Source: Rhodocyclales bacterium
GTDB taxonomy: Bacteria; Pseudomonadota; Gammaproteobacteria; Burkholderiales; Rhodocyclaceae
Direction of reading: 5' to 3'
NCBI GenBank assembly: GCA_028292505.1
Contig: JAQGMF010000040.1
Location: forward strand, 1-45,378
Length of the DNA: 45,378 nucleotides
Shown: one piece after another, positions 8,209 through 25,090 of the stretch
Layout of the letters: each line of letters opens with the position of its first letter
Position numbering within the stretch: the first letter of the stretch is position 1
Translations under genes and position numbers: made by a program
The notes under the pieces: generated by a model
The model's input: only the letters and a program-made list of their open reading frames with translations
Databases searched by the model: none
Told to the model about the DNA's origin: nothing

Positions 8209-9372
8209 TTAATCCGTCGCAGCCCATCGCATGCGCGCCAACGCTTCCGTGAGCACGCCGCGGCTGCAGCCGAAATTGAGACGCAGAAATCCGGGCGCGC
8301 CGAAATCTGCGCCGTCCGATAACAGAACCCCATGTGCTTCAAAAAAAGCCGTGGGGTTTTGTTTTTTCTCGTTTGCCAGTTCGCGGCAATCCAGCCAGGC
8401 CAGGTAGGTTGCATCGACCGGCGTGGTGCGCACGCCCGGCATTTCGGCGACGGCTTGCATGATGAGCTCGGCATTGCCGCGCAGATAGTCGAGCAGGGCA
8501 AGGCGCCAGTCGTGCGCATCGCGATAGGCCGCTTCGGTCGCCACCAAGCCCATGACATTGGTATGAGGCATGAGGCCATCTGCGACGCGCCGGAAACGCC
8601 GGCGCAAGTTCGCATCGGTAATGATGGCGAAGGCGCTGGAGAGGCCTGGAATGTTCCAGGTCTTGCTCGGCGCCATCAGAGTGATCGTGCGATCGGCGAT
8701 GTCTTCGCCGAGCGATGCCAATGGAATATGCGGTGTGTCGGGATTTAGCACCAGACCGCAGTGAATCTCATCCGAACAGATCAGCATGTCGCGCTCGATG
8801 GCCAGTGCACCAAGATTCAGCAGCTCTTCGCGACTGTAACTGCGGCCAACCGGATTATGTGGATTGCATAGAAGCAGCAGGCGCGTTTCGGGCGTGATGC
8901 ATGCTGACAGATCGTCGAAATCGCATACCCAGCGTTGAGTCGACGCGCTGTCTTCAAGCACCATGTCGCTACGAATCAACTGGCGTTGCGTGTTGCCAGG
9001 CGCGCTCAGAAACGGTGGATACACCGGCGTCAGCGTGGCGACCGCATCGCCCGGAGAGCCTGACAGCAGACATGCCAGATTGAAGCCGCTGACGACTCCC
9101 GGCAGCAACACGATCCAGTCCGGATCGATGCGCCAGCCATGGTCGCGCTGCAGCCCCTCGACGATCGCATCCAGCAGCGAAGGCCAGGGCGCCGCGTAGC
9201 CCATGACGCCGTGCTCCAGCTCCTGGCGCATCGCTGCGAGCACGGCAGGCGGCGCCGCGAAATCCATGTCGGCGACCCACATCGGCAGCACGTCGCGACC
9301 GGCAACGCGTTGCCATTTCACGCTGTGCGAATTGCGGCGGTCAGGCGGTGTATCGAAGTCGTAAGCGGGCAT
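8209..9372 (-). CDS. PatB/MalY-type PLP-dependent C-S lyase or aminotransferase
   Basis: This 387-residue fold-type I PLP enzyme resembles MalY/PatB cystathionine beta-lyases, which cleave C-S bonds and release a thiol, pyruvate and ammonia. Support comes from MWVADMDFAAP near the N-terminus, LLCNPHNPVGRSYS, the DEIHCGLVL segment, and the Schiff-base lysine in TLMAPSKTWNIPGL (K237). The ATG at 9372 gives MPAYDFD, typical for the family; an extension to 9444 lacks similarity. An operator-like palindrome (9448-9471) lies 76 bp upstream, in the divergent region shared with the ABC transporter at 9801. It may therefore belong to the GntR regulon, though its role there is not obvious. The exact reaction cannot be fixed from sequence. 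Confidence 0.85.
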   Translation of the reverse strand: MPAYDFDTPPDRRNSHSVKWQRVAGRDVLPMWVADMDFAAPPAVLAAMRQELEHGVMGYAAPWPSLLDAIVEGLQRDHGWRIDPDWIVLLPGVVSGFNLACLLSGSPGDAVATLTPVYPPFLSAPGNTQRQLIRSDMVLEDSASTQRWVCDFDDLSACITPETRLLLLCNPHNPVGRSYSREELLNLGALAIERDMLICSDEIHCGLVLNPDTPHIPLASLGEDIADRTITLMAPSKTWNIPGLSSAFAIITDANLRRRFRRVADGLMPHTNVMGLVATEAAYRDAHDWRLALLDYLRGNAELIMQAVAEMPGVRTTPVDATYLAWLDCRELANEKKQNPTAFFEAHGVLLSDGADFGAPGFLRLNFGCSRGVLTEALARMRWAATD

Positions 9373-9800
9373 GGTTGCGATTATTTCCACTGAACGCGTA
9401 ATTGTAAGTGGTCGCACGACAGGCATTGCAGGCTGGCACGACATCTGCTTGTATGCATACTAGTATACAAGAGGAAAAGTCATGTTACCTGTGCTCCATC
9501 GCGCACGAGCCATAGATGGCGCCGCAACGGCGGCTGATCCTGGAAAAGTTTTCGGGTCGGCTCAGCGCACGGCCACCACCATGGTGCAGCCACGGCGCGG
9601 CGCTGGTGCAGACATGCTCGCCGTAACCCGCTTTTTCTCTCTGATATTGCGGACCGTCCTGCTCCCTTCACCCCGCACGTTCCTTGCCTATGCAGGTTCG
9701 TGTGTGGAGGGTGGATCGGTGCTGCGCGCGGCGCATAACCGTCTCTGAGCAGGCAAACCCCACGATCGACAAGCCAGAACCACTTTCTACTGGAGAACCC
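9373..9800 (+). other. Divergent control region and long leader
   Basis: After operator A comes AGAGGA and an ATG at 9482 opening an 88-codon frame (9482-9748). Its product resembles nothing I know and has the Arg/Pro-rich look of an out-of-frame translation. Because 14805 has the same operator-AGAGGA-ATG layout in front of a real gene, this frame could be a gene remnant or leader peptide. Otherwise the 300 bp is an untranslated leader for the ABC transporter. I could not match it to a known riboswitch. Confidence 0.4.
9448..9471. promoter_or_regulatory. GntR-type operator, site A
   Basis: Arms CTTGTAT and ATACAAG are separated by 10 bp; the right part also holds TAGTATACAA, matching the GntR pattern TNGTNNACNA. 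It lies between the minus-strand PLP enzyme and the plus-strand ABC transporter. The same core occurs at 14479-14490 and 17965-17980 and in degenerate form at 14767-14794. Binding by the FCD regulator at 16829 is inferred. Confidence 0.7.
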
Positions 9801-10826
9801 ATGAAACCTATCGTTCCGCAACCCACAGAAGTCACTGCAAGCCCGAACCGCCGCCGTCAGTTGCTCGGCGGTGCAGTGGCCGGCGCCGCCCTGGCCGCCA
9901 TTGGCGCCCCAAGCATTGTCAAGGCACAGGCCTCGCCGAAGATTCGCATCGGCTTCTGGCCGGTGGCTTCCGCGCTGCCTTTCTTCGCGGCCATCGAAAA
10001 GGGCTACTTCAAGGAAGCCGGCCTGGATGTGGAGCCGCTCAAGTTCGCGAGTGCGCAGCAGGTCATGGAGGCGATGCTGTCAGGTCGTGCTGAAGGCAGC
10101 TCGAACGGCACGGCTTCGGCGGTGCTGGCCATTGGTGAGATCGCACAGCCAGGCTTGTTCAAGATTTTCTGTACCAATCCGACTAATGCCAAATACATAC
10201 TCGACGAATTTATCGTCGCTAAGGACAGCCCGATCAAGACGCTGGCCGATCTAAAGGGCAAGCGTGTCGCATCCGGACCGGGGATTCAGAACGTGACACT
10301 TGCCAAGGTCATGCTCGAGCGCGCCGGCGCGGGCACTGTCGCGGTCAGCGAGCTGCCGATCGGTCAGCACGTTGCTGCGCTGGCTGCGGGGCAGATCGAT
10401 GCGGCCTACACGCTCGAACCCACCGGCACGGTCGGCCGACTCAACGGCACGACACGCACACTGGAAGTAGGTGTCGTCGCCAAGTACATCCTCGGTGATC
10501 CAATGGCGCCGTGGCATGGCGGCTCCGCCAGTCTGACGACGGAGTTCATCAAGAAGTATCCGGATGTCGCCAAGAAGTACATAGCGGCCTACAAGCGCGG
10601 GGTTGATCTCGTCAAGACCAAGCCTGACGAAGCGCGGCCGTTTCTCAAGGGCTATACCGCCATCGAAGGTCCGCTGACCAGTGAAGTGCCGATGTCGGAT
10701 TACATGTTCTACAACGAGTTCAAGCCGAGCGACATTGCCTACTTCCAGAAGTTTTTCGATCTTTTCTCAGACAAGGGCATCTTCGAAAAACGCGTGCTGA
10801 TCGACTCGATTCTGTACAAGGGATAA
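9801..10826 (+). CDS. NitT/TauT-type ABC transporter substrate-binding protein, Tat-exported
   Basis: This periplasmic binding protein (341 aa) belongs to the NMT1/SsuA/TauA superfamily that binds small anionic, sulfonate or pyrimidine-like ligands. The N-terminus has a twin-arginine-type signal (NRRRQLLGGAVAGAALAA, cleavage likely after IVKAQA). The mature part starts KIRIGFWPVASALPFF and contains the family stretch GYFKEAGLDVEPLKF. The ATG at 9801 follows TGGAGA; an in-frame start at 9684 lies before the signal peptide and has no support. It leads an operon with a permease (3-bp gap) and an ATPase. Position beside operator A suggests control by the GntR protein. The ligand is unknown; a ureide, biuret or pyrimidine-like compound is inferred from context only. 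Confidence 0.88.
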   Translation: MKPIVPQPTEVTASPNRRRQLLGGAVAGAALAAIGAPSIVKAQASPKIRIGFWPVASALPFFAAIEKGYFKEAGLDVEPLKFASAQQVMEAMLSGRAEGSSNGTASAVLAIGEIAQPGLFKIFCTNPTNAKYILDEFIVAKDSPIKTLADLKGKRVASGPGIQNVTLAKVMLERAGAGTVAVSELPIGQHVAALAAGQIDAAYTLEPTGTVGRLNGTTRTLEVGVVAKYILGDPMAPWHGGSASLTTEFIKKYPDVAKKYIAAYKRGVDLVKTKPDEARPFLKGYTAIEGPLTSEVPMSDYMFYNEFKPSDIAYFQKFFDLFSDKGIFEKRVLIDSILYKG

Positions 10827-10829
10827 ATC

Positions 10830-11684
10830 ATGACGGACACGGTTTTGGACAATGCGCCGGCACCGGCGGCGCCTTCCTCCGGCGCCTGGACCGCACCCGC
10901 AGCGATACCTGCGGTGGCGCTTCCCAGAAAATTCGAATGGAATAAATTGCAACCCTTCATCGGCCCGATAGCCTTGTTCATAATCTGGGACCTGGTGGTG
11001 CGTTTCGGGCTCATCAAGGTGGTGCTGCTGCCGACGCCGGCGGCCACCATCGGCAACCTGATCACCGGGCTGGCCGGCGGGCCGCTGCTCACCGACTTTC
11101 TCGTCACGGTGATGCGTACGCTCGAAGCGTTTGTCATAGCGGCGGTGGTCGGCGTGCCGCTCGGCGTTTTACTCGGCAGTAACGAGCGCGCCTATCGCAG
11201 TGTCGAGTTTCTCATCGACTTCTTCCGCTCGACGCCGTCCTCCGCGCTGATTCCGCTGTTCCTTTTGATCTTCGGCGTGTCCGACGTCAACAAGGTTGCT
11301 ATCGCGGCCTTCGGTGCGTTGCTGATCGTGCTGTTCAACAGCGCCTACGGCGTCATCAATGCGCGCAAGCAGCGCGTCATGGCAGCGAAAGTGATGGGCG
11401 CTTCGCGCTGGCAGATATTCAAGGATGTGCTCATCTGGGAAAGCCTGCAGCCGACTTTCGTCGGGCTGCGTTCGGCCGTGTCGATGGCACTTGTGATTGT
11501 CATTGTCGCCGAGATGTTCATTGGTTCCGACAGCGGCCTTGGTCACCGCATCATCGACGCGCAGCAGGTGCTGAATGTCAAAAGCATGTACGCCGCGATC
11601 CTTGCGGCTGGCGCACTCGGTTATGCACTCAACATACTGGCTCTCGTCGTCGAACGACGCATCGTGCACTGGAGCGGGAGATAA
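10830..11684 (+). CDS. NitT/TauT-type ABC transporter permease
   Basis: The 284-residue inner-membrane protein resembles SsuC/TauC permeases. After a proline/alanine-rich N-terminal tail come about six hydrophobic segments. The BPD_transp_1 coupling motif appears as AAKVMGASRWQIFKDVLI followed by ESLQPTFVGL. It starts 3 bp after the binding-protein gene and ends 2 bp before the ATPase gene, so the three are one operon. Confidence 0.92.
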   Translation: MTDTVLDNAPAPAAPSSGAWTAPAAIPAVALPRKFEWNKLQPFIGPIALFIIWDLVVRFGLIKVVLLPTPAATIGNLITGLAGGPLLTDFLVTVMRTLEAFVIAAVVGVPLGVLLGSNERAYRSVEFLIDFFRSTPSSALIPLFLLIFGVSDVNKVAIAAFGALLIVLFNSAYGVINARKQRVMAAKVMGASRWQIFKDVLIWESLQPTFVGLRSAVSMALVIVIVAEMFIGSDSGLGHRIIDAQQVLNVKSMYAAILAAGALGYALNILALVVERRIVHWSGR

Positions 11685-11686
11685 GC

Positions 11687-12505
11687 ATGCGCCCCATCGA
11701 TAACATCGCTGAACTCGAACCGCCGAAGCGGCCCTTCACGCCGGGCCCGGCGGGTACGCACATCACCATTCGCGGTCTCACCAAGTACTTCGCCGGTTGG
11801 CCACTCTACGAGAATTTCGATCTCAATATTCCGAAGCATCAGATCGTTTCGGTATTCGGGCCGAACGGCTGCGGCAAGTCCACGCTGATCAACATGATTG
11901 CTGGATTGATCCCCATCGATTCCGGCGAAATTCTTTTCGATGGCAAATCGCTGGCCGATACGAAGATTGGCTACGTGTTCCAGAACTATCGCGAGGCCAT
12001 GTTTCCGTGGCTGCGCACCATCGACAACATCGCTTATCCCTTGAAGCTGGAAGGCAAGTCGCGCATCGAGATCGACCGGCGCATGGAGCAACTCGTTGCT
12101 TCCTTCGACGTAAAGTTCGATCTCAAGCGCTACCCGTACGAGCTTTCCGGCGGGCAGCAACAGACCGCTTCGATCATGCGCGCCCTCGCGCCCGAGCCGG
12201 AAGTGTTGTTCCTTGATGAACCGTTCTCCGCGCTCGATTTCGAGATGACTTTGTTTATCCGCGAGAAATTGCAGGAGGTATTTCTCGAAACCGGTACGAC
12301 GATGATGCTGGTCTCGCACGACCTGGAAGAGGCTGTCTATCTCGCGGATCAAGTTTTGTTGTTGACCAAGCGGCCCACGCGCGTTGCGGAAATTCTGGAG
12401 TACAAGGATGCGCGCCCGCGTACCGTGGAAACCTTGTCGACGCAAAGTTTTGTCGACATGAAAAAATTGAGCCTGGAGATATTCCAGCGTGAAGTGCGGC
12501 GCTGA
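11687..12505 (+). CDS. NitT/TauT-type ABC transporter ATP-binding protein
   Basis: The 272-residue ATPase energises the importer encoded upstream. Walker A is FGPNGCGKSTLINM, Walker B is VLFLDEPFSALDF and the H-loop is LVSHDLEEAVYLAD. The ABC signature reads LSGGQQQTASIMRAL, where most relatives have LSGGMRQR, so the residues after LSGG are unusual. The gene ends at a cluster of inverted repeats and converges on atzF. Confidence 0.93.
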   Translation: MRPIDNIAELEPPKRPFTPGPAGTHITIRGLTKYFAGWPLYENFDLNIPKHQIVSVFGPNGCGKSTLINMIAGLIPIDSGEILFDGKSLADTKIGYVFQNYREAMFPWLRTIDNIAYPLKLEGKSRIEIDRRMEQLVASFDVKFDLKRYPYELSGGQQQTASIMRALAPEPEVLFLDEPFSALDFEMTLFIREKLQEVFLETGTTMMLVSHDLEEAVYLADQVLLLTKRPTRVAEILEYKDARPRTVETLSTQSFVDMKKLSLEIFQREVRR

Positions 12506-12509
12506 TTGA

Positions 12510-12627
12510 CGTCATTCCTGCGGAGGCGGGAATGACGTTGGGATGTATGAGTAGGGCGGAGTGCAAACTCCGCCATCGCAGTCATCAATCGACAGCGTGG
12601 ATCGGCGGAGTTTGCACTCCGCCCTAC
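12510..12627. repeat. Two inverted repeats between convergent genes
   Basis: The first, 12510-12537, pairs CGTCATTCCTGC with GCGGGAATGACG around GAGG; it belongs to the ATTCCC/GGGAAT family also seen at 17637-17668 and 40208-40288. The second has perfect 24-bp arms at 12551-12574 and 12604-12627 starting GTAGGGCGGAGTGC. They lie between the ABC ATPase and atzF stop codons and may end both transcripts. Confidence 0.85.
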
Positions 12628-12634
12628 GAAGTTG

Positions 12635-14464
12635 TCAGTCGGCAGACCGTTGCATGTAAGCGCGCCAACCGCCAAACCGCGTTATGTCTTCGGCATTCTT
12701 AATCACAAAACCTTCACACAGAAATCCCTTGACGGCCTCGCCATCTTCGAGCAAGAGCGTGCCGATACCAAGTGGTGCCGGAATGCGCGAGACGAAATCG
12801 CCGAACGCGGCGACTGACATTTCCCATACTTCGATAGCGATTGCTGCGCCGTCTTCTTCAACACGTATCAAGCCTGGCTTGGGCGGGACCGTACCGGCCA
12901 GCGCATAGAGGCGGTAATGCGGAGCGGTGTTACAGGCGCGCACGAAGCTCGCTGCGCGCTCACTCAACTCGTGATTGAGCGGCATGCCATTGAGGTGCGC
13001 GCCGACCACGGCAACGCGCACCGTGCCGGCACGCAGAGGCCATTCGAACGGCACGCTGGATGACATAAGTGGATGACCTGTCGCGCCTGCGGGTATGGCA
13101 TTGGCATGATGCAGCTTTTCGGCCAGCGCAGCGATACTGGCGTCCGTCCATGCAGGCGCGAACAAGGTGACGCCAAAGGGCAGATCGTCAGGACGAAATG
13201 CCGCTGGCACAGCGATGGCGCAGAGGTCGAGCAGGTTCGCGAAGTTGGTGTAGTAACCGAGGCGGCTATTGAGCGTGACCGGGTTGGCCTGGATTTCGTC
13301 AACGCGGTAATGCGTCGGCGAGGTCGGCAGGACCAGTACATCCATCGTCGCCCAGATCGACGCGACACGTTTTCTCAGTGCTTCGAGTTTGGTCAGTGCG
13401 CGATGGCTGTCGGCGGCAGAGTAGTTGAGACCTTTGCTGATGACGGCGCGCACGGCTGGATCGAGCGCATCCGGTTGGCTGGCCAGTAAGTCGCCGGCGG
13501 CTTCGAGTCGCTCGGCGACCCATGGGCCGTCATAGAGCAGCGCCGCGGTTTCGGTAAAGGGTGCGAAATCAATGTCGATCAACTCTCCCATGGTGGCAAG
13601 TTGCTTCAGCGTTGTTTCATAAGCCGCAGCGGATAGCGCGTCGCCGAAGAATTCGCGTTGAGCCGGCCGTGGCACACCAATGCGCGGACGTTTCGGCAGA
13701 CCTCGCGGCTGTGCTGCGCGCGACCAGGGATCAGCCATGTCCTGTTCGCCGGCTGCACGCAGCACTTCCCAGGCGTCCCCGGCGGTGAGCGCAAAGACCG
13801 ATACGCAGTCGAGCGAGCGACAGGCCGGGACAACACCCTTGCACGACAGCCAGCCGCGCGTCGGTTTGGCACCGACAATATTATTGAACGCTGCGGGCAC
13901 GCGACCCGAGCCCGCGGTATCGGTTCCGAGCGCGAAGCTGACGCAGCCGGAGGCAACCGTCACGGCAGAACCAGAACTGGAGCCGCCGGAAACGAAATCC
14001 GGATTGAATACGCTGCCCGGCACACCGTAGGGCGAACGGGCGCCGACAAGCCCTGTGGCGAACTGATCGAGATTCGTCTTGCCGATCAGGATCGCACCCG
14101 CATCGAGCAGGCGCTGCACGACCGTTGCGGTCACCGCCGGCGTGTAGGCGAAGGCGGGACAAGCGGCCGTCGTCGGTATTGCGGCCACATCGATGTTGTC
14201 CTTGACGGCAAATGGCACACCATACAGGGGTAGTCCTGCGGGACCCTTTTCGGCCAGCGATGCCGCACGTGCCAGTGCGTCCGCGCGCGGCACGATATGA
14301 ATCCATGCCGTCGGGTCTACGAAATGTTCGAGATGATCGTAAGCCTGGGTGATTACGTCGACCGGAGAAATGCCAGACGCATAGAGCCGGCGGAGTGCTT
14401 CGAGAGAAAGTGCGGGAATCGTGATTGGATGGTCAGGCATATCGGCGGTGATCCTTGGCGTCAT
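12635..14464 (-). CDS. atzF: Allophanate hydrolase
   Basis: Allophanate hydrolase converts allophanate (urea-1-carboxylate) to ammonia and CO2, the last step of cyanuric acid, biuret and some urea pathways. The 609-residue protein matches AtzF (about 605). The amidase-signature domain spans about residues 15-450. Its Lys-cisSer-Ser triad is K88 (PFAVKDN), S162 (SGGSSSGS) and S186 (DTAGSGRVP), with the same spacing as the AtzF triad K91-S165-S189. A C-terminal domain of about 150 residues follows (from VRVAVVGAHLNGMPLN), as in AtzF and DUR1,2. The ATG at 14464 lies 15 bp from operator B; an internal ATG at 14440 is an alternative. It is transcribed away from atzG-atzE-atzH, with operators B and C between them. 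Confidence 0.95.
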   Translation of the reverse strand: MTPRITADMPDHPITIPALSLEALRRLYASGISPVDVITQAYDHLEHFVDPTAWIHIVPRADALARAASLAEKGPAGLPLYGVPFAVKDNIDVAAIPTTAACPAFAYTPAVTATVVQRLLDAGAILIGKTNLDQFATGLVGARSPYGVPGSVFNPDFVSGGSSSGSAVTVASGCVSFALGTDTAGSGRVPAAFNNIVGAKPTRGWLSCKGVVPACRSLDCVSVFALTAGDAWEVLRAAGEQDMADPWSRAAQPRGLPKRPRIGVPRPAQREFFGDALSAAAYETTLKQLATMGELIDIDFAPFTETAALLYDGPWVAERLEAAGDLLASQPDALDPAVRAVISKGLNYSAADSHRALTKLEALRKRVASIWATMDVLVLPTSPTHYRVDEIQANPVTLNSRLGYYTNFANLLDLCAIAVPAAFRPDDLPFGVTLFAPAWTDASIAALAEKLHHANAIPAGATGHPLMSSSVPFEWPLRAGTVRVAVVGAHLNGMPLNHELSERAASFVRACNTAPHYRLYALAGTVPPKPGLIRVEEDGAAIAIEVWEMSVAAFGDFVSRIPAPLGIGTLLLEDGEAVKGFLCEGFVIKNAEDITRFGGWRAYMQRSAD

Positions 14465-14478: not shown

Positions 14479-14490
14479 CTTGTATACAAG
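14479..14490. promoter_or_regulatory. GntR-type operator, site B
   Basis: The perfect 12-bp palindrome CTTGTATACAAG is 15 bp upstream of the atzF start codon. A further half site ATTGTATTCC adjoins it. Its position, overlapping the likely promoter or leader of atzF, fits repression by a GntR/FCD protein. Confidence 0.75.
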
Positions 14491-14766
14491 ATTGTATTCC
14501 AGCAAGGGGTATGCCAGTTTCGTTCTGGCCAAAAAATGACGATAAGTATTTGAAAACAAAATTGAAGTGCCGCGTAAAACGAGGGCCGGCGGGATGGTTT
14601 GGCGCTTCACTGCCTTCTTGTAGGGCGGGAGGGCATGCCCTTGCACCGGCGTGGGGCCATGAAGAAGGTCGTGGGTCGCAAGTGCGCCGAGGTCCGTTGC
14701 TTTCTGCGACGGCGCTATCTTTGTGATGATGTTGCGAAAGGCCGCTGAGCCGGTATTGGATCAGAA

Positions 14767-14794
14767 CTTGCATGTAGACAAACATGTATGCAAG
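14767..14794. promoter_or_regulatory. GntR-type operator, site C (degenerate)
   Basis: TTGCAT at 14768-14773 and ATGCAA at 14788-14793 form an inverted repeat; the right half reads ATGTATGCAAG as in site D. It ends 10 bp before the ATG of the atzG-like gene, and AGAGGATGGAG just after it provides the ribosome binding site. Confidence 0.6.
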
Positions 14795-14804: not shown

Positions 14805-15023
14805 ATGGAACAAGACAAGAATCCCGCGAAGGACCTGAGCAATTCCGGTTCGACCTGGCGCGATTATGCCAATATCGTTTCACACGCGCAGGGCTATCAG
14901 CTTGACGAGGCGCAGCTTGGGCGGGTCGCCGCACAGCTGGAGCTGATCGGCATGGTCGCCGCACCACTGCTTGCCTTGCAGCTACCTGCTGAACTGGAAC
15001 CTGCGCCGGTGTTCCGCCCATGA
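14805..15023 (+). CDS. atzG: AtzG-like small partner of amidase (DUF4089)
   Basis: The 72-residue product resembles AtzG, the small subunit that binds and stabilises AtzE (1-carboxybiuret hydrolase). A helical stretch (ANIVSHAQGYQLDEAQLGRV, then QLELIGMVAAPLLAL) is followed by a Pro/Glu-rich end, PAELEPAPVFRP, like the AtzG tail. I chose the ATG at 14805 because GGATGGAG precedes it; an upstream ATG at 14784 lies inside operator C. Its TGA overlaps the atzE ATG (ATGA), which fits stoichiometric co-translation of a heteromer. Confidence 0.85.
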   Translation: MEQDKNPAKDLSNSGSTWRDYANIVSHAQGYQLDEAQLGRVAAQLELIGMVAAPLLALQLPAELEPAPVFRP

Positions 15024-16444
15024 GTGGAACGCAGTGGGAGCAGATGGCCGCATGGCAGATTGCCGACGCGGTATCGTCCGGCGAAGCGTCGGCACACGAG
15101 ATCGTCAGCCGGGTATTGCAGACCGTGCGCTACCGCGACGCCAATATCAACGCCTATACCGATCTCACCGAACAGCGCGCGCTGGAAGAGGCCGCTGCCA
15201 TTGATGCCAAACGCATACGCGGTGAGACCATGCCGGTGCTGGCCGGCGTGCCATATGCGGTCAAGAATCTGTTCGATGTCGAGGGGCTTGCCACTTTGGC
15301 TGGCGGTCATCGCGGCAGGGCGGGGCCGACGGCGGTCAGCGATGCAACGCTGGTTGCGCGCGCAGCTCAAGCAGGAGCGTGCCTGATCGGCACCCTCAAT
15401 ATGGACGCTTATGCATATGGCTTTACGACCGAGAATAGCTTTCATGGTGTGACGCGCAATCCGCACGATCCGCTGCGTGTCGCGGGCGGTTCTTCGGGTG
15501 GCAGTGGCGCTGCGGTGGCGGCCGACATGTGCGCGTTTTCGCTGGGCTCCGACACCAACGGTTCGATCCGCGTGCCATCGTCATTTTGCGGCGTGTTCGG
15601 TCTCAAGCCGACCTACGGTGGATTGTCGCGCGGCGGCAGCCGGCCTTTCGTGCACAACCTCGATCACGTCGGCCCCTTCGCACGTGGCGCACGCGACCTG
15701 GCGCGTATTTTCGACGCACTGGTCGGTCTCGATGGGCGCGACCCTGCGTGCAGCAGAGACGCCGGACCAAGCGTTGAAGCAGGCGTGCTGCGCGCCACGC
15801 AGGAAGGGCTTGCCGGCCTGCGCGTGGCGCGCCTCAACGGCTACTTCGATCGCTGGGCCGGGCCCGATGCGCGCACCGCGAGCCGGTCCGTCGCCATGAT
15901 GTTCGCCGCGCAGGAAGAACTCGACCTGCCGGATGTAGCGGCTGCGCGCGCTGCCGGATTCGTCATCACCGCCAGCGAATCGGGCGAGTTGTATCGCGGC
16001 GAATTGCAGGCACATTACGAAGACATGGAGCCGCTCAATCGCGATCGCATGCTGGCTGGTAGCTTGCTGCCTGCCACTTGGTACGTGCAGGCGCAACGTT
16101 TCCGTCAACACTTTTACCGGCAGATGATGGCGCTCTTCGAACGCTTCGATCTGCTGGTCGCGCCGGCCACGCCCTGTGTTGCGACCGAAATCGGTCAGCA
16201 ATGGCTGGAGTTGCCCGGCGGACGCGTACCGGCACGGCCCTCTATCGGCCTGTTGACGCAACCGATCTCTTTCATCGGCCTGCCTGTCGTGGCTGTGCCG
16301 CTACCCACGGCGAACGGCATGCCGATCGGCGTGCAGCTCATCGCCGCGCCCGGTCGCGAAGATATCGCGCTCGCCGCCGCCGCAGTGCTCGAAGCCGGCG
16401 GGCACACCTTCACACCACGCCGGAGTGCGAGCCATGAAGATTGA
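15020..16444 (+). CDS. atzE: AtzE-like amidase (1-carboxybiuret hydrolase family)
   Basis: This is an amidase-signature hydrolase of 474 residues, close to AtzE (about 457). AtzE with AtzG deaminates 1-carboxybiuret to 1,3-dicarboxyurea. The catalytic triad is K82 (YAVKNLF), cis-Ser S158 (AGGSSGGS) and nucleophile S182 (TNGSIRVPS), with canonical spacing. Later segments such as LLVAPATPCVATEIGQ and GLPVVAVPLP are typical of the AtzE/GatA-like group. The adjoining atzG and atzH homologues argue for the AtzE assignment rather than a generic amidase. No cyanuric acid hydrolase is in the window, so the natural substrate may differ from 1-carboxybiuret. Confidence 0.88.
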   Translation: MSGTQWEQMAAWQIADAVSSGEASAHEIVSRVLQTVRYRDANINAYTDLTEQRALEEAAAIDAKRIRGETMPVLAGVPYAVKNLFDVEGLATLAGGHRGRAGPTAVSDATLVARAAQAGACLIGTLNMDAYAYGFTTENSFHGVTRNPHDPLRVAGGSSGGSGAAVAADMCAFSLGSDTNGSIRVPSSFCGVFGLKPTYGGLSRGGSRPFVHNLDHVGPFARGARDLARIFDALVGLDGRDPACSRDAGPSVEAGVLRATQEGLAGLRVARLNGYFDRWAGPDARTASRSVAMMFAAQEELDLPDVAAARAAGFVITASESGELYRGELQAHYEDMEPLNRDRMLAGSLLPATWYVQAQRFRQHFYRQMMALFERFDLLVAPATPCVATEIGQQWLELPGGRVPARPSIGLLTQPISFIGLPVVAVPLPTANGMPIGVQLIAAPGREDIALAAAAVLEAGGHTFTPRRSASHED

Positions 16445-17964: not shown

Positions 17965-17980
17965 ATCTTGTATGCAAGAT
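17965..17980. promoter_or_regulatory. GntR-type operator, site D
   Basis: ATCTTGTATGCAAGAT is a near-palindrome with the core CTTGTATGCAAG. It lies 54 bp before the start of the BMP binding-protein gene, in a typical operator position for that operon. Confidence 0.75.
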
Positions 17981-18033: not shown

Positions 18034-19146
18034 ATGGCCGGGCAGAAATTTGATCGTCGCAACTTCCTTAAAATCGCCGCCGCATCGGGCGCACTCGCCG
18101 CGGTATCGAACTCGGCGCTGGCGCAAGGCAAGCCGCTGGTCGTAGGGTTCATTTATGTCGGCGCGCGCGATGACTTCGGTTACAACCAGGCGCATGCGCA
18201 GGCTGCTGCGGCGATGAAGAAGATGCCCGGCATCAAGGTGATAGAAGAAGAGAAGGTGCCCGAGACGATCGCCGTACAGAAGACGATGGAGGCGATGATC
18301 GAACAGGATGGTGCCAGCCTGATCTTCGCGACTTCGTACGGCTACTTCGACCCGCATGTGCTCAAGGTTGCGGTGAAATATCCCAAGGTTTTCTTTGCCC
18401 ATTGCGGCGGCCTGTGGACGGAAGGCAAGCACCCGAAGAACGTTGGCAGCTTCTTCGGTTATATCGACGAATGCGAATATCTAAGTGGCATGATCGCCGC
18501 CAGCGTATCGAAGACCAAGAAGGCCGGCTTCATCGCCGCCAAACCGATTCCGCAGGTGCTACGCAATATCAATTCCTTCACCATGGGCGCGCAATCCGTC
18601 GATCCCGCATTCACGACGCATGTGATTTTCACAGGCGACTGGTCGCTGCCGGTGAAGGAAGCGGAGGCTTCCAACAGCCTCATCGACCAAGGTGCCGATG
18701 TACTCACATGTCATGTTGACGGCCCCAAGGTTGTCGTGGAAACGGCCGAGAAGCGCGGCGTGTTTACGACGGGCTACCACGCCAGCCAGCTTGCGCTTGC
18801 ACCGAAAGGTTATCTGACTGGCGCGGAGTGGGACTGGGTTGCGCCTTACACCACGCTCATCGAGGCGGTGAAGGCTGGCAAGCAGCCGCCTAACTTCCTG
18901 CGCGGCGGCCTGAAGGAAGGCTTCGTGAAGATGTCGCCTTACGGCGCTGCCGTGCCGGCCAAGGCGAAGGCTGCGGCCGATGCCGTGAAGGCCAAGATGG
19001 TGAAGGGCGAGTTCACAATCTTCAAGGGCCCGATCAAGGACAACAAGGGCGCGACCGTCGTGGCGGCCGGCGCATCGCAAGCTCAGCAGGATCCCGTCCT
19101 GGAAGGCATGAACTACCTCGTGGCCGGCGTGGTGGGCAGTATCTAG
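18034..19146 (+). CDS. BMP-family ABC transporter substrate-binding protein, Tat-exported
   Basis: This 370-residue BMP (PnrA-like) binding protein belongs to importers that mostly take up nucleosides or nucleobases. A twin-arginine-type signal (FDRRNFLKIAAASGALAAVS, cleavage after ALA) replaces the lipobox common in Gram-positive members. Family segments include GFIYVGARDDFGYNQAH and GSFFGYIDECEYLSGMIA. The ATG at 18034 follows AGGGGA; an in-frame start at 17923 would place coding sequence across operator D. The permeases and ATPase of the system follow but are separated by repeat elements and by two hydrolase genes, and all point the same way. Confidence 0.9.
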   Translation: MAGQKFDRRNFLKIAAASGALAAVSNSALAQGKPLVVGFIYVGARDDFGYNQAHAQAAAAMKKMPGIKVIEEEKVPETIAVQKTMEAMIEQDGASLIFATSYGYFDPHVLKVAVKYPKVFFAHCGGLWTEGKHPKNVGSFFGYIDECEYLSGMIAASVSKTKKAGFIAAKPIPQVLRNINSFTMGAQSVDPAFTTHVIFTGDWSLPVKEAEASNSLIDQGADVLTCHVDGPKVVVETAEKRGVFTTGYHASQLALAPKGYLTGAEWDWVAPYTTLIEAVKAGKQPPNFLRGGLKEGFVKMSPYGAAVPAKAKAAADAVKAKMVKGEFTIFKGPIKDNKGATVVAAGASQAQQDPVLEGMNYLVAGVVGSI

Positions 19147-19158
19147 GGACGGGTGCAT

Positions 19159-19295
19159 TGCAGTCCCCTCTCCATTAGGGAGAGGGTGCCCCGTCAGGGG
19201 CGGGAGAGGGGAAAGCGTGAATCTATGTACGGTCTCTGGAATACGCCCCTCTCCTGCCGCATCGCGGCACCCTCTCCCGAGGGGGAGGGGGACGG
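19159..19295. repeat. CCCTCTCC-family inverted repeat, copy 2
   Basis: It comprises CCCCTCTCCATTAGGG, then CCGTCAGGGGCGGGAGAGG, a spacer, and the complementary-type end CACCCTCTCCCGAGGG. It shares a 24-bp segment (19231-19254) and a 17-bp segment (19172-19188) with copy 3 at 23335-23470, both in reverse orientation. Lying between the binding protein and the permease genes, it could form a hairpin that lowers downstream expression. Confidence 0.8.
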
Positions 19296-19384
19296 CAGCG
19301 GGAGTCGCTTGGCGGAGCCTTGTCGCCCGTATGATTTGAACGTCATCTTGTCCAGCCTTTGACGTAGCCTATTGAAAGATTCGA

Positions 19385-20503
19385 ATGAACACCACGCTGG
19401 AACGCATCCTTGTCCCCCTTGGTGCAGTCGTAGTTTCGCTGCTGCTGTTTGCCCTCTTCGTGGCACTGGCGGGTTATCCGCCGCTGGATGTTTTCGCGCT
19501 GCTCTACAAGGGCGGGTTTGGTAGCAGTTTTTCCTGGAACAATTCTCTGCAGCGCGCCGCGCCGCTGATTCTCACCGGGCTTGCAGTGGCCATCCCGGCG
19601 CGTGCCGGGCTGGTCATCATTGGTGGCGAAGGCGCAATGGTGCTGGGCGGTCTCGCGGCAGCAATCGTCGGCGTGTGGGGACCGACGCATATTTCGCTGG
19701 TGGCGCAGATCGCCATGCTGTTCTCGGGCGCGTTGATCGGTGCGATCTGGATCGGCCTGTGCGGCTGGATGCGTCATGCGCGCGGCATAAACGAGACGAT
19801 CAGCAGTCTGTTGATGGCCTATATCGGCATCGCCTTACTCAATCATTTCGTCGAAGGTCCGCTCAAGGACCCGAACAGTCTCAACAAGCCATCGACACCG
19901 CCTATTCCCGACGCCAACATGCTCGGGCTGACACCGGGCTTTGACGTGCACATGGGTCTGTTGATCGGCGTGGTCGTGGCACTCATTGCCTGGGCCGTGC
20001 TGCGATTTACGACATTGGGATTTTCGCTCAAGATCGTCGGCGGCAACCCGCGCGCGGCACAGCTCGCCGGGCTGCGTGTAGGGCGCTGGATCATCGGTGC
20101 CTGCGCGGCGGGGGGCGCGGCGGCGGGGCTGTCAGGCGCCATCGAAGTGGCCGCAGTGCACGGCTCGGCCAATGCGTCGCTCATATCGGGCTACGGCAAT
20201 GCCGGTATCCTGATTGCGTTCATGGCGCGTCACAATCCGCTGGCGATCATCCCTGTTGCCGTGCTCATCGGTGGCATTGGCGCAGCAGGCGGCATGCTGC
20301 AACGTCGTCTGGATATGCCGGATGCCACTGTCATTGTGCTGCAAGGCATGGCCTTCATTGCCATCCTCGCCAGCGAAGCGGTGATGGGTAGCCCATGGCG
20401 GCGCATCGCGCAGCGGCTGTGGGGAATCGAACCGGCGACTGCGCCGATCGCGCCCGCGCCAGTCACGGTTGTAGCCAAATCTTCTTCGCTGGAGGTCGCA
20501 TGA
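19385..20503 (+). CDS. BMP-type ABC transporter permease 1
   Basis: The 372-residue inner-membrane permease resembles YufP/NupP-type components of nucleoside ABC importers. It has about nine or ten hydrophobic segments. The core GLAVAIPARAGLVIIGGEGA and the cytoplasmic loop GGNPRAAQLAGLRVGRWIIG are typical of this permease class. It overlaps the second permease by ATGA at 20500-20503. Confidence 0.92.
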   Translation: MNTTLERILVPLGAVVVSLLLFALFVALAGYPPLDVFALLYKGGFGSSFSWNNSLQRAAPLILTGLAVAIPARAGLVIIGGEGAMVLGGLAAAIVGVWGPTHISLVAQIAMLFSGALIGAIWIGLCGWMRHARGINETISSLLMAYIGIALLNHFVEGPLKDPNSLNKPSTPPIPDANMLGLTPGFDVHMGLLIGVVVALIAWAVLRFTTLGFSLKIVGGNPRAAQLAGLRVGRWIIGACAAGGAAAGLSGAIEVAAVHGSANASLISGYGNAGILIAFMARHNPLAIIPVAVLIGGIGAAGGMLQRRLDMPDATVIVLQGMAFIAILASEAVMGSPWRRIAQRLWGIEPATAPIAPAPVTVVAKSSSLEVA

Positions 20504-21435
20504 GCGCCGCTGCAGAATCCCTCGGCTGGCTCGGCGTGCCGCTCGCCGTTTTTGCGGGCGCGATACGCGTGTCGACACCCTTCATGCTGGTGAGTCTGGG
20601 CGAATGCATCACGGAGAAATCCGGGCGCATCAATCTCGGCCTCGAAGGTATCCTGGTGATGGGTGCGATGGCGGCCTATGCTGCTTCGTTTAAAACTGGT
20701 TCGCCGTGGTTCGGTCTATGGGCGGCGGCTGGCGTCGGCGCCATGTTTGGTCTGTTGCATGGCTTGCTATGCAGCCTCAAACGCGTAAATGACATTGCCA
20801 TAGGTATCGCACTGATGCTGTTCGGTACGGGGCTGGCGTTCTTCCTCGGCAAGCCTTACATCCAGCCCAAGGCGCCGAATCTGCCGTCGATCCCGCTCGG
20901 CTTCTGGACCGACAACCCGCAGCTCGCCAATGCGCTTGATGTGAATCCGCTGTTTCCGGCGGGCGTGCTCCTGGCGTTTTTCCTGCATTGGGCATTCCGC
21001 AACACGAGCTGGGGATTGAAGCTGCGCATCGTCGGCGACAGCGCGGATGCGGCGCTGGCGCTCGGCTACAAGATCATCCCCGTGCGCATCGTCGCCACCA
21101 TGTGCGGCGGCGTGCTCGCAGGCCTCGGCGGCGCATTCTTGTCTTTGTATTACCCCGGTAGCTGGAACGAAGCGCTGTCGAGCGGGCAGGGCATCATCGC
21201 TGTGGCCCTGGTCATCTTTGCGCGCTGGCAGCCGCTGCGTTGCGTCGGTGCTGCGCTGCTCTTCGGTGGAGCCGGTGCACTCGGCCCGGCCTTGCAGGCG
21301 GCCGGTGTGTCGGGTGGCTATCACCTGTTCAATGCCGCGCCGTATGTACTGACCTTGCTGATCCTGATCGTGAGTTGCTCGCCGACGCGCAGTTTGCAGG
21401 GCGCGCCCGGTGAACTCTCATTAACGCGCAGTTGA
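20500..21435 (+). CDS. BMP-type ABC transporter permease 2
   Basis: The 311-residue permease resembles YufQ/NupQ. The family signature TPFMLVSLGECITEKSGRIN followed by LGLEGILVMGA is clear, as is the loop IVGDSADAALALGYKI. GGAGG at 20491-20495 and the ATGA overlap fix the start at 20500. It pairs with permease 1 to form the membrane channel. The amidohydrolase genes downstream start 13 bp after it, which ties transport to hydrolysis. Confidence 0.92.
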   Translation: MSAAAESLGWLGVPLAVFAGAIRVSTPFMLVSLGECITEKSGRINLGLEGILVMGAMAAYAASFKTGSPWFGLWAAAGVGAMFGLLHGLLCSLKRVNDIAIGIALMLFGTGLAFFLGKPYIQPKAPNLPSIPLGFWTDNPQLANALDVNPLFPAGVLLAFFLHWAFRNTSWGLKLRIVGDSADAALALGYKIIPVRIVATMCGGVLAGLGGAFLSLYYPGSWNEALSSGQGIIAVALVIFARWQPLRCVGAALLFGGAGALGPALQAAGVSGGYHLFNAAPYVLTLLILIVSCSPTRSLQGAPGELSLTRS

Positions 21436-21448
21436 CGAGGGAAGTGAC

Positions 21449-22450
21449 GTGAGCGGACTCGGCGGTCTCAACAAATCACCCAATGGCATTATCATAGGGC
21501 TGGTGCAGATCCAGAACCCTTGGGTCGTGACGCGCGACGATCTGGCGGCGCAGACGAAGCGCATCGTCGAGCTGGTCGGCAAGGCGCGCCGCAATAATCC
21601 GGCGATGGACCTGGTGGTGTTCCCGGAGTACAGCCTGCATGGTCTGTCGATGGACATCAACCCTGACATCATGTGCTGGTTGGAAGGGCCGGAAGTCAAA
21701 GCGTTCAAGACCGCCTGCGTCGACAACAAGATATGGGGCTGCTTCTCCATCATGGAGTACAACCCGCAAGGCAACCCCTACAACACGGGTCTGATCATCG
21801 ACGACCAGGGCGAGATTCGTCTCAATTACCGCAAGCTGCATCCCTGGGTGCCGGTCGAGCCGTGGGAACCGGGCAATGTTGGTGTGCCGGTGTGCGACGG
21901 GCCGAAGGGCGCGAAGCTGGGGCTGATCATCTGCCACGACGGCATGTTCCCTGAGATGGCGCGCGAGGCGGCCTACAAGGGCGCGGAAATCATCATCCGC
22001 ACGGCAGGCTACACGGCACCTATTCGTCATACATGGAAAATCACCAATCAGACCAACGCTTTTCACAATCTGGCGCAGACAGCGAGTGTGTGTCTGTGTG
22101 GCAGCGACGGTTCGTTCGACTCGATGGGCGAGGGCATGTTCTGTAATTTCGACGGCACAGTGATGGTGGAAGGCAGCCATCGGCCGGACGAAATCATCAC
22201 CTGTGAAATGCGCCCCGATCTCGTACGTGAAGCGCGCATCCACTGGGGCGTGGAAAACAATATCTACCAACTAGGGCATCGCGGCTACGTCGCAGTGAAG
22301 GGCGGTGCACAGGATTGTCCCTATACCTTCATGCACGACATGGTCGCAGGCAAATACGCTTTGCCGTGGGAGGCCGAAGTGATTCACAAGGACGGCACAT
22401 CCTGCGGCTTCGAGCCGCCGAAGCGCCGTTACAGCGGAGAGAAGAAATGA
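21449..22450 (+). CDS. amiF: AmiF-like formamidase (nitrilase superfamily)
   Basis: This 333-residue nitrilase-superfamily amidase closely resembles formamidase AmiF (334 aa in Helicobacter pylori), which hydrolyses formamide to formate and ammonia. The Glu-Lys-Cys triad is E60 (VVFPEYS), K129 (NYRKLHPW) and C162 ([10 protein letters not shown]). Other family stretches are [17 protein letters not shown] and [16 protein letters not shown]. Translation starts at GTG 21449 after GAGGGAAG, and the resulting N-terminus [10 protein letters not shown] aligns with that of AmiF. Its place between a nucleobase-like transporter and biuret hydrolase suggests it acts on an N-formyl or amide intermediate rather than free formamide. 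That is inference. Confidence 0.88.
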
Positions 22451-22472
22451 GAGCAGGAAAGAGAGCAAGAAA

Positions 22473-23162
22473 GTGAGTTTCCTCAAATCACAACCCTACG
22501 CATGGCCGTTTGACGGCGAATTGCGACCCGACAATACGGCGCTGATCGTCATCGACATGCAGGTCGACTTCTGCGGCATCGGCGGATATGTCGATCGCAT
22601 GGGCTACGATATCTCGCTGACGCGTGCACCCATCGAGCCGATCAAGCGGCTGATGGCGACGATGCGTGAGAAAGGCTACTGGATCATCCACACGCGCGAA
22701 GGGCACCGGCCGGACCTCTCGGACCTGCCAGCCAACAAGCGCTGGCGCTCGCGGCAAATCGGGACGGATGGCATTGGCATAGGCGATGACGGGCCGTGCG
22801 GGCGCATCCTGGTGCGTGGCGAACCGGGCTGGGACATCATTCCCGAGCTCGCACCATTGCCGGGCGAAATCATTATCGACAAGCCTGGTAAAGGCTCCTT
22901 CTACGCTACGGACTTGCAACTGGTGCTGCGCTCGCGCGGCATACGCAATCTGCTGATTACCGGTATCACCACCGACGTCTGCGTGCACACGACGATGCGC
23001 GAAGCGAACGATCAGGGCTTCGAGTGTCTGCTGGTAGAAGATTGCTGCGCAGCTACGGATCATGAAAATCATCTCGCCGCGATACGCATGGTGCATATGC
23101 AGGGTGGTGTGTTCGGCGCGACGGCAATGAGCGAGGCGGTGATCGAAGGATTGCCAGCTTAA
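22473..23162 (+). CDS. biuH: Biuret hydrolase-like cysteine hydrolase (isochorismatase fold)
   Basis: The 229-residue isochorismatase-like hydrolase matches the BiuH/RutB group. BiuH cleaves biuret to allophanate and ammonia; RutB cleaves ureidoacrylate. The catalytic Asp-Lys-Cys triad is D32 (MQVDFCG), K137 (IDKPGKGSF) and C170 (TTDVCVHTT), with practically the spacing of the described BiuH triad D36-K142-C175. The segments [19 protein letters not shown] and [11 protein letters not shown] are BiuH-like as I remember that family. Start is GTG 22473 preceded by GGAAAGAG. The product allophanate would feed AtzF encoded 8 kb upstream. Confidence 0.87.
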
Positions 23163-23530
23163 AAAACAGAGCTGAGTTTGTGGTTCTCTCCCCAGAAGGA
23201 GGAACGCTTCGTAGTGATGGGGAAGTGAACAGGGTAGTAGCGCGGGAAGATGGAAAAGGCCCCTGTTCAATTCCTCTCCCGGACCGGAACCTCCTCGCGG
23301 GGAGGGAATTGCAAACACCGACAAGACAAATGTAGTCCCCTCCCCCCTCGGGGGAGGGTGTCCCGTCAGGGACGGGAGAGGGGCGTATTCCAGAGACCAT
23401 CCATTGGCCGACGCTTTCCCCTCTCCCGGGCCCGACGGCCCACCCTCTCCCTAATGGAGAGGGGAAGGCAAGCTGCGTCACCATTTGAGCGTGAAACTGT
23501 CGCGTGCAATATATTACAAGGACATAGACC
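23163..23530. other. Repeat-filled gap between biuH and ATPase gene
   Basis: No gene is visible. Besides repeat copy 3 (23335-23470) the first half (about 23190-23310) has looser C-rich/G-rich inverted words (CTCTCCC, GGGGAGGG), probably a decayed copy of the same family. AAGGA just before 23531 is the ribosome binding site of the next gene. Confidence 0.65.
23335..23470. repeat. CCCTCTCC-family inverted repeat, copy 3
   Basis: This is a reverse-orientation relative of copy 2. 23375-23398 is the exact complement of 19231-19254, and 23441-23457 the exact complement of 19172-19188. It lies inside the transporter operon, between biuH and the ATPase gene. Confidence 0.8.
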
Positions 23531-25090
23531 ATGATTCCCATCGAAGCAGTCCGCCGTGCCACAGGCGCCATGGCGCTCGACGTGCTGCACATGTCCAAGC
23601 ATTTCGGTTCGCTTGCCGCGCTTGATGACGTCTCAATATCCATTCCGGCAGGCAGCTTTCATGCGCTGCTCGGCGAGAACGGGGCGGGCAAGAGCACGCT
23701 GGTGAAATGCCTCGTCGGCTTCTACAAGCAGACTGCCGGCAGTGTGATGATCGATGGCCGCGAGACCGACATCCCGACGCCAACGACGGCGTCCGCGCTG
23801 GGCATTGGCATGGTCTATCAGCACTTCACGCTGGTGCCGTCGATGACGGTTGCGGAGAATCTCGTCGCTGCGCGTGGTGCGCTGCCGTGGAAACTCAACT
23901 GGAAGGCCGAGAAGAAGGCACTGACGGAATTCATGGAAACGGTGCCCTTCAAACTGCCGCTCGATAAGCCCGCTTCTTCGCTCGCTGCAGGCGAGAAGCA
24001 GAAGGTTGAAATCATCAAGCAGCTCTACCTCAAGCGACGTTTCCTGATTCTCGATGAACCAACCTCCGTGCTCACGCCCGACGAAGCCGACGAGGTGCTC
24101 GGCTTCGTTCACGGACTGACGCGTCAACGCACGCTAACGGCCGTAATGATCACGCACAAATTCCGTGAAGTGATGGCTTATGCCGATGCGGTGACGGTAC
24201 TGCGTCGCGGCAAGATGGTCGGCAGTGGACTGGTCAAGGATCTCAGCGTCGACGCCATGGCCGAGATGATGGTCGGCAGCAAGGTCAATACCGGCAAGCA
24301 TCGCGCAGAACGCACCGCTGCCGCGGAAGCCGCGCCACGCCTGCATCTGCAAGGCGTGACAGCGCTTGGCGACAACGGTTTGCCGGCCGTGCATGGGCTG
24401 AGTCTGGCTGTGCGTCCGGGCGAGATACTGGGTATCGCCGGAGTCTCCGGCAATGGACAACGCGAGCTGGCAGAAGTGCTCAACGGCCAACGCACGCTGC
24501 ATGCGGGCAGCATAATGATAAACAATGTCGAGTTCACTGGTTCGCGCCGCGAGCGTGCCGAACTTCGCGTTTTTAGCCTGCCCGAAGAGCCTTTGAAGAA
24601 CGCCTGCGTCGGCCCCGTTTCCGTCGCCGACAATATGGCGCTGCGAAATTTTGACCAGATACCGTTGTCGCGTTTCGGCATCATCAACAGCCGCGCTCTG
24701 CGCGCGCAGGCTACGCGTTTCGTCGAGGCCTTCCGCGTCAAAACCCAGGGCATTGACGCGCCCATCTCATCGCTGTCGGGCGGCAATGTGCAACGCGCTG
24801 TGCTCGCGCGAGAACTCTCCTGGCCCGTTGACGTACTCATCGTCGCCAACCCGGTCTTCGGCCTCGACTTCGCCGCCGTCGCCGAGACACATGCCCGCAT
24901 CATGGGCGCCCGCGCTGCGGGCGCAGCCATCCTGCTGATCAGCGAAGACCTCGACGAACTACTCGAACTCGCCGATCGCATCGCCGTGATCAGCGAAGGC
25001 AAGCTGGTGTACGAAACCGACGCCGAGACCGCCGACGTGCGCACGCTGGGACATTACATGGGCGGCGGGCATCACGCGGAAGCGGCGTGA
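23531..25090 (+). CDS. BMP-type ABC transporter ATP-binding protein, two ABC domains
   Basis: The 519-residue protein fuses two nucleotide-binding domains, as in YufO/NupO and sugar-importer ATPases. Domain 1 (about residues 15-250) has Walker A LLGENGAGKSTLVKC, signature LAAGEKQKVEIIKQL and Walker B FLILDEPTSVL. Domain 2 (about 270-510) has a changed Walker A GVSGNGQREL, signature LSGGNVQRAVLAREL and Walker B VLIVANPVFGLDF. A degenerate second Walker A is normal for this family. It should energise the permeases encoded at 19385 and 20500, though a repeat and two enzyme genes intervene. It converges on cysK. Confidence 0.92.
   Translation: MIPIEAVRRATGAMALDVLHMSKHFGSLAALDDVSISIPAGSFHALLGENGAGKSTLVKCLVGFYKQTAGSVMIDGRETDIPTPTTASALGIGMVYQHFTLVPSMTVAENLVAARGALPWKLNWKAEKKALTEFMETVPFKLPLDKPASSLAAGEKQKVEIIKQLYLKRRFLILDEPTSVLTPDEADEVLGFVHGLTRQRTLTAVMITHKFREVMAYADAVTVLRRGKMVGSGLVKDLSVDAMAEMMVGSKVNTGKHRAERTAAAEAAPRLHLQGVTALGDNGLPAVHGLSLAVRPGEILGIAGVSGNGQRELAEVLNGQRTLHAGSIMINNVEFTGSRRERAELRVFSLPEEPLKNACVGPVSVADNMALRNFDQIPLSRFGIINSRALRAQATRFVEAFRVKTQGIDAPISSLSGGNVQRAVLARELSWPVDVLIVANPVFGLDFAAVAETHARIMGARAAGAAILLISEDLDELLELADRIAVISEGKLVYETDAETADVRTLGHYMGGGHHAEAA

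Follow-up and report, generated by a model that had tools for sequence, protein, structure and literature searches.

A candidate triuret/biuret scavenging regulon in a Rhodocyclales bacterium with a shared operator, a GntR/FCD regulator and sigma-54-like promoters

Introduction

What does a bacterium consume with a set of genes that converges on allophanate, when the gene for the first enzyme is not among them? This question is raised by a gene island in a 45,378-nucleotide stretch of DNA from a Rhodocyclales bacterium (assembly GCA_028292505.1, contig JAQGMF010000040.1, positions 1 to 45,378 of the forward strand; henceforth the window), which encodes AtzF, AtzG, AtzE, AtzH and BiuH homologues, two ABC importers and a GntR/FCD regulator. 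A first-pass annotation had read the island as a single regulon for some substrate other than cyanuric acid, lacking its first enzyme. We propose, with a probability of roughly 0.74, that the island is the main part of a triuret/biuret scavenging regulon that would be switched on through sigma-54 and off by the GntR/FCD protein, with its trtA gene on another contig. Judged by homology, the first enzyme is therefore elsewhere in the genome rather than missing.

Triuret and biuret are nitrogen-rich relatives of urea. Triuret is an impurity of urea fertiliser and an oxidation product of uric acid; the product of TrtA is carboxybiuret, the AtzEG substrate, which AtzD makes too, and a TrtA-(TrtB)-BiuH-AtzF pathway, with TrtB as carboxybiuret decarboxylase, has been described in Herbaspirillum sp. 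BH-1 and Rhizobium leguminosarum 3841 (PMC7948467). Clusters of atzF, ABC importer genes and atzGEH in beta-proteobacteria are reported as being of unknown function, and the purpose of atzGEH clusters without atzD was left open (PMC6219798).

Results

Gene content of the island

All genes reported for the window are present with open frames, and the assignments of atzF, atzG-atzE-atzH, biuH, an AmiF-like gene, two importers and a GntR/FCD gene are borne out by scores above NCBIfam or Pfam cut-offs:

9801-10826, plus strand: NMT1/THI5-type substrate-binding protein (Pfam PF09084), twin-arginine leader by eye only
10830-11684, plus strand: ABC permease, TauC/SsuC type
11687-12505, plus strand: ABC ATPase, TauB type
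12635-14464, minus strand: AtzF, allophanate hydrolase (NCBIfam TIGR02713, 801.6 vs cut-off 511.05)
14805-15023, plus strand: AtzG, small subunit (Pfam PF13318; HpxX model not reached, 25.2 vs 70)
15020-16444, plus strand: AtzE, amidase of the 1-carboxybiuret hydrolase family (model NF006631, 633.8 vs 461; best solved match AtzE 6c62, 473 bits)
16434-16811, plus strand: AtzH-like NTF2-fold protein (above Pfam cut-off; HpxZ model passed)
16829-17548, plus strand: GntR/FCD regulator (N-terminal GntR domain PF00392 and C-terminal FCD domain PF07729, above Pfam cut-offs)
18034-19146, plus strand: BMP-family substrate-binding protein, Tat signal above Pfam cut-off (best solved match AtzT)
19385-20503, plus strand: ABC permease A (PF02653)
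20500-21435, plus strand: ABC permease B, start codon set by eye
21449-22450, plus strand: AmiF-type formamidase (model 568.6 vs 406)
22473-23162, plus strand: BiuH, biuret hydrolase (equivalog 411.5 vs 370)
23531-25090, plus strand: ABC ATPase of the BMP importer (Pfam)

By profile models the window encodes both BiuH and AtzF of the triuret/biuret pathway, and it holds AtzG, AtzE, AtzH and AtzF of the atzDGEHF operon. The window BiuH scored 392 bits with R. leguminosarum BiuH, 343 with the biuret hydrolase 6xjm and 222 with TrtA 6xix. All nine pocket residues given for AtzH (PMC6219798) are kept in the window protein (by eye, numbering offset 3). Both binding proteins had been called Tat-type; this holds by model for the BMP protein, and by eye only for the NMT1-type protein.

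One type of predicted operator precedes the transcription units

Palindromes had been placed upstream of the units at four sites. All four are there, with two of the positions (9448 and 14767) corrected to best matches at 9460 and 14783, because each of these strong sites is accompanied by a weaker copy at a distance of 12 bp (9448 and 14771). Sigma-54 promoters are marked by -24 and -12 elements in which GG and GC lie a fixed distance apart. Letters resembling TGGCACG-N4-TTGC stand directly before the operators in the flanks, and the regulatory features are:

9434-9448, plus strand: sigma-54-like promoter TGGCACGACATCTGC towards the NMT1-type importer, 10/11 positions
9448-9471: operator, CTAGTATACAAG at 9460 (1 mismatch) with a weaker copy at 9448; also in G001
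14479-14502: operator before atzF, exact CTTGTATACAAG at 14479 with a weaker copy at 14491
14502-14516, minus strand: sigma-54-like promoter TGGCATACCCCTTGC towards atzF, 11/11
14757-14771, plus strand: weaker sigma-54-like promoter TGGATCAGAACTTGC towards atzG, 9/11
14771-14794: operator before atzG, CATGTATGCAAG at 14783 (1 mismatch) with a weaker copy at 14771
17948-17962, plus strand: sigma-54-like promoter TGGCATATGGCTTGC towards the BMP importer, 11/11
17967-17978: operator before the BMP importer, CTTGTATGCAAG, exact

Sites with at most 3 mismatches are mildly frequent in the window (49 vs a shuffle mean of 34.7; 2/100 shuffles reach 49), and the genome-wide count at 1 mismatch (9 forward and 6 reverse) is not above that of the reversed-pattern control (8 and 8). 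The operator claim rests on the two exact matches in the genome, both within the island, and on recurrence of the site before the same genes in relatives. Seven other non-trtA places with 1 mismatch were considered as regulon members and set aside, as no gene of the set was found beside them: six (on contigs C1, C10, C16, C22 twice, and C43) are within open frames of 175-909 codons, unlike the place on C44, and the set-type gene nearest to the C43 place is a 25% NMT1-type match about 4 kb off. The 12-bp doubling was likewise dropped as a firm operator feature: a second match (at least 8/12) stands at -12 in 8/32 sites, and the -12 element of sigma-54 promoters contributes to the same signal.

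A TrtA-type gene with the operator lies on another contig

A paralogue of BiuH at positions 57997-58665 of contig C51 (minus strand) is predicted to be a TrtA-type triuret hydrolase gene, and a 1-mismatch operator lies about 55 bp upstream of its start (C51:58720-58731). Its product has TrtA as best solved match (277.9 bits vs 243.4 for BiuH) and scores 273.4 against the BiuH model, short of the cut-off of 370, which the window BiuH exceeds. Six positions discriminate TrtA, namely F35, N41, E160, Y187, I205 and A134 (PMC7948467); by eye in the alignment, the C51 protein has the TrtA residues there and the window BiuH the other set. Among the fetched loci, 37/42 TrtA-labelled matches have F/N/E at the first three positions (the other 5 have E at the third, their first motif not being read), and 31/33 BiuH-labelled matches have Y/Y/D, the exceptions being two Salipiger matches. 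The operator before trtA in the source genome (G000) is identical in G001 and diverged in G012 (CTTGAATACAAG); in G117, a 1-mismatch site precedes trtA on a separate contig, and a second TrtA-labelled gene (52%) has none.

The trtA gene stands among genes of purine/ureide type (locus L023, C51:49000-68000), which encode an allantoicase, a deaminase, a DUF1989 protein, an FCD-GntR protein and two BMP binding proteins. Contig C47 (locus L024, 4064-9208) carries the gene of a third isochorismatase-like hydrolase, at 42% to BiuH, alongside those for an amidase and a BMP-type importer; a TIR-domain gene is close by.

Operator and regulator occur together in relatives

The site tracks the regulator. 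Leaving aside the source genome and G001, an operator with at most 1 mismatch lies upstream of a gene of the set in 14/20 loci with an orthologue of the GntR protein and in 3/29 without (14/20 and 4/29 when sought anywhere in the locus); at 2 mismatches it is found in 19/20 loci with the orthologue. Permuted palindromes served as control for the same loci, and the best of 119 reached 2/20. A second set, the best 80 of a longer list of named loci, gave 7/13 with GntR vs 1/67 without at 1 mismatch, and 11/13 vs 4/67 at 2 mismatches; the two sets are not independent, since the named locus L138 is almost surely G012 (same sites). Several loci are cut at contig ends. Away from AtzE, G267 has 1-mismatch sites before BMP and a second atzF, and G155 has a 2-mismatch site at its BMP gene. 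The BMP clusters that lie apart from AtzE in G195 and G239 have no site, nor has that of G412 (cut before BMP); no GntR orthologue was seen at the AtzE loci of these genomes. G008 gave no AtzE match at 1e-60; it does have biuH, trtA, atzF and the GntR orthologue, and a site lies before its BMP gene. This conservation supports the earlier idea of a nitrogen-scavenging gene set that converges on allophanate under one operator type and one GntR regulator.

Could the operator belong to another regulator, or the island GntR protein be an activator? The pairing of protein and site comes from conservation, and enterobacterial hpx loci have the palindrome core too, close to a different GntR-type gene. 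Yet the sites follow this orthologue across loci and lie -1 to 18 bp past the -12 element, where a bound protein would block, and of the 8 loci whose best regulator match is a 34-39% paralogue, 4 carry a GTTGTATACAA(C/G) site instead. We consider both variants unlikely. Many of the hpx loci (L155-L191) have sites with the TTGTATACAA core 3-5 kb downstream of the AtzE homologue, and in several of these loci the sites lie beside a distant GntR-type gene. Loci L075, L081, L083 and L095, with a GntR paralogue at 35-39%, have sites GTTGTATACAAC or GTTGTATACAAG, possibly a shift in operator specificity.

Sigma-54-like promoters face the set genes

With GG and GC fixed and at least 9/11 positions required, a sigma-54 pattern points towards the set gene at 32/32 non-trtA operators, at a gap of -1 to 18 bp from the operator. 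The count omits G001 and takes six of the 80 named loci, picked for having a 1-mismatch site (L138 and L164, which also have one, lie outside it); 48-mers drawn at random from the same loci reached the score at a mean of 0.55/48 and a maximum of 3. Over the whole window the pattern is not above chance (6 vs 5.2), so the claim rests on position and conservation. Gaps between the -12 element and the operator are uneven, clustering at 4, 7, 10-11 and 14-15 bp. The genome encodes two proteins with a sigma-54 DNA-binding domain, and one NtrC above its cut-off. NtrC-type sites are not above chance in the window (8 matches vs 9.0 expected); three of the matches, at 9573, 14643 and 17857, are close to the promoters, which is no more than a hint.

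The direction of the promoters also assigns the site at 9448-9471. The set as first annotated also includes a gene for a PatB-type pyridoxal phosphate (PLP) C-S lyase (432.9 vs an NCBIfam cut-off of 340). The site goes with the importer unit, because the pattern at 9434-9448 points there and none points towards the PLP gene in the flank inspected. The lyase gene lies near the set in 3/51 loci, all of close relatives (G000, G001 and G012), and its G012 copy has no site beside it; we find no support for its membership in the regulon. Repeat-like stretches were seen by eye between units at 12503-12640, 17600-17800 and 19155-19300.

The gene set around AtzE in relatives

AtzE was found in 10/101 relatives (1e-60) and in 46/399 order genomes (1e-100), a sample of a larger group; together these make 51 genomes. 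Their AtzE loci also hold trtA (17), biuH (14), atzF (27), a GntR orthologue at 50% identity or more (22) and amiF (6). Several show the order BMP-permease-permease-(amiF)-biuH-ATPase-trtA, then atzE-atzH, and some of these have gntR as well. Caenimonas koreensis DSM 17982 (L185) and Pseudorhodoferax sp. Leaf267 (L175) have atzF, the NMT1 importer, atzE, the BMP importer, biuH, trtA and gntR in one stretch, and a Sulfitobacter plasmid has the BMP-permease-permease-amiF-biuH-ATPase order of the window, then a TrtA-type gene. Because trtA shares the operator here and a stretch with window genes in many relatives, the single regulon of the first-pass annotation keeps its one operator type and one GntR protein, and its substrate is best read as triuret/biuret.

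Among the 101 relatives, a TrtA/BiuH-type match is found in 6/10 genomes with AtzE vs 5/91 without, and PF09663 in 5/10 vs 1/91; either is present in 8/10 vs 5/91 (Fisher p = 2.6e-7, without kinship correction). Nine of the 51 AtzE genomes have a TrtA-type protein, with no BiuH-type protein found (G012, G024, G117, G238, G248, G269, G328, G395 and G397), and all nine have an AtzF match (1e-100), which suggests a biuret-independent route from triuret to allophanate; residue signatures cover five of the nine, and the other four are assigned by identity to TrtA (52-76%).

TrtA-BiuH-AtzF clusters of Ideonella dechloratans (L044) and G008 (L115) include an AtzH homologue and no AtzE match in the stretch; their AtzH-like protein may act directly on carboxybiuret, perhaps as a decarboxylase. 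Rhabdaerophilum sp. SD176 (L212) has trtA, biuH, an AtzD-type gene, the BMP importer and atzE in one locus.

Cyanuric acid as a substrate

Cyanuric acid hydrolase had been declared missing. This is true of the window and is disproved for the genome, in which C51:70691-71767 encodes AtzD, next to genes for LysR and an NMT1-type importer (517.8 vs 360 for the equivalog model; best solved match cyanuric acid hydrolase at 426 bits vs 285 for barbiturase). Since the genome encodes this enzyme, it does not follow that the substrate is "not cyanuric acid". The set could instead be the second part of a pathway from cyanuric acid, with AtzD as its chief supplier, a reading helped by these scores and by the pairing of AtzD with AtzGEHF in Pseudomonas ADP. 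Here, however, atzD lies outside the atzGEHF cluster, on another contig, unlike in the atzDGEHF operon; LysR and NMT1-type importer genes of its own accompany it, and no operator with at most 2 mismatches lies in the 14 kb fetched around it, whereas trtA has one. PF09663 matches occur in 20/51 AtzE genomes, and TrtA-type neighbours are common (17/51 loci). We regard a set fed mainly by AtzD as the least probable of the alternatives weighed here.

AtzGEH and the oxalurate enzymes

AtzG-AtzE-AtzH could also be an oxalurate module (HpxXYZ-like) for purine breakdown that happens to lie beside unrelated biuret genes. The window AtzH scores above the HpxZ cut-off (138.6 vs 135), Klebsiella HpxY shares 56% identity with the window AtzE (53% for ADP AtzE) and nests within the AtzE family tree, and an allantoicase gene lies in the neighbourhood of trtA. 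Sequence alone, tried as a judge between AtzE and HpxY, fails on that nesting. Against an oxalurate role, the HpxX model is not reached by AtzG, no HpxW-type family was assigned to any of the 15 island genes (hpxW was not sought in the rest of the genome), and AtzF, which would have no substrate from oxalurate, is present in more than half of the AtzE loci (27/51), with TrtA in 17/51. An oxalurate module is thus very improbable, if slightly less so than a pathway fed mainly by AtzD.

In a 56-row tree of AtzE, trtA-linked rows fall into several separate groups, and Pseudomonas ADP AtzE shares a group (100/100) with an atzD-linked row of P. putida and with G108, which has trtA, biuH and gntR at its locus. 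The tree fits, without proving, a cyanuric acid operon that took AtzGEH from a triuret-type cluster.

Discussion

The triuret/biuret regulon proposed here must be set against several observations that speak against it. trtA is neither in the window nor beside biuH in the source genome, and it is on another contig in G001 as well. The trtA operators are without the sigma-54 pattern (0/2 and 0/3 in two scorings), and the G117 trtA shows a weak one by eye. A sigma-54 pattern within 260 bp of the first gene also occurs in loci without the GntR orthologue (8/19 vs 17/23 with it; random stretches 1.3%), and the 50% identity limit that defines orthologues was chosen after the data were seen. No TrtA/BiuH-type match at 1e-40 was found in 17/51 AtzE genomes, of which 11 also have no PF09663 match, and so have neither type of feeder; the AtzGEH core can therefore serve other uses too. 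To these are added the palindrome core in hpx loci and the substrate of AtzE, which is not fixed by sequence alone because HpxY lies in its tree and the AtzH of the window exceeds the HpxZ cut-off.

If the triuret/biuret reading is right, the BMP importer would take up triuret or biuret, and TrtA would convert triuret to 1-carboxybiuret and ammonia. From there two routes to allophanate are predicted: AtzEG and AtzH would carry carboxybiuret through 1,3-dicarboxyurea, and loss of CO2 would give biuret for BiuH. AtzF would free the last ammonia from allophanate, and cyanuric acid, through AtzD, could join the lower part of the pathway. Control would be a two-key switch in which sigma-54 reports nitrogen shortage and GntR the substrate. 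Because the operators begin a few bases past the -12 element, near the expected transcription start, a GntR protein sitting there would obstruct the sigma-54 polymerase; the effector that releases this predicted repressor may be a small carboxylated intermediate of the pathway.

How does this system compare with those described? With the triuret pathway of Herbaspirillum and R. leguminosarum it shares a TrtA-type protein, BiuH, AtzF and, in similar clusters, a BMP-type importer; it differs in having trtA on another contig, AtzGEH as a second carboxybiuret route, and a GntR operator with the sigma-54 pattern (PMC7948467). The atzDGEHF operon of Pseudomonas sp. ADP (pADP-1; PMC6219798) likewise has AtzGEH and AtzF, and the best solved match of the window BMP protein is AtzT, the atrazine periplasmic binding protein; here, by contrast, AtzD is outside the island, a GntR gene stands in place of LysR, and BiuH and TrtA are present. 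The beta-proteobacterial atzF/ABC/atzGEH clusters of the same report are here linked to TrtA/BiuH, a shared operator and sigma-54 patterns. Enterobacterial HpxWXYZ oxalurate clusters have a homologous amidase, small subunit and AtzH-like protein, but differ in their hpxW partner: among the best 80 named loci, hpxW is matched in 43 and trtA found in 11, and only L201 has both. Nitrifier trtA-trtB-biuH-atzF-bmpA clusters resemble the island in trtA, biuH, atzF, a nucleoside-type importer and, in a figure legend, a GntR gene; the passages of that report consulted describe no AtzGEH, operator or sigma-54 control (PMC12625717). Among titles and abstracts, none was found to link GntR, sigma-54 or AtzEG/AtzH to triuret, biuret or allophanate as such a regulon.

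A broader proposal, which we hold tentatively and at somewhat below even odds, is that AtzG-AtzE-AtzH is at root a triuret enzyme set, leading from triuret to allophanate without biuret under the control of sigma-54 and a dedicated GntR repressor, and that the herbicide-linked cyanuric acid operon arose later, by AtzD replacing TrtA. The 11/51 AtzE genomes with neither feeder weigh against it.

Many atzGEH clusters without atzD are tied to TrtA by shared stretches, by the shared operator and by the absence of BiuH in 9/51 genomes. This link makes the question of their purpose directly testable in named, cultured organisms. If it is true, triuret would be a nitrogen source with a two-key control of its own, answering to nitrogen shortage and to substrate.

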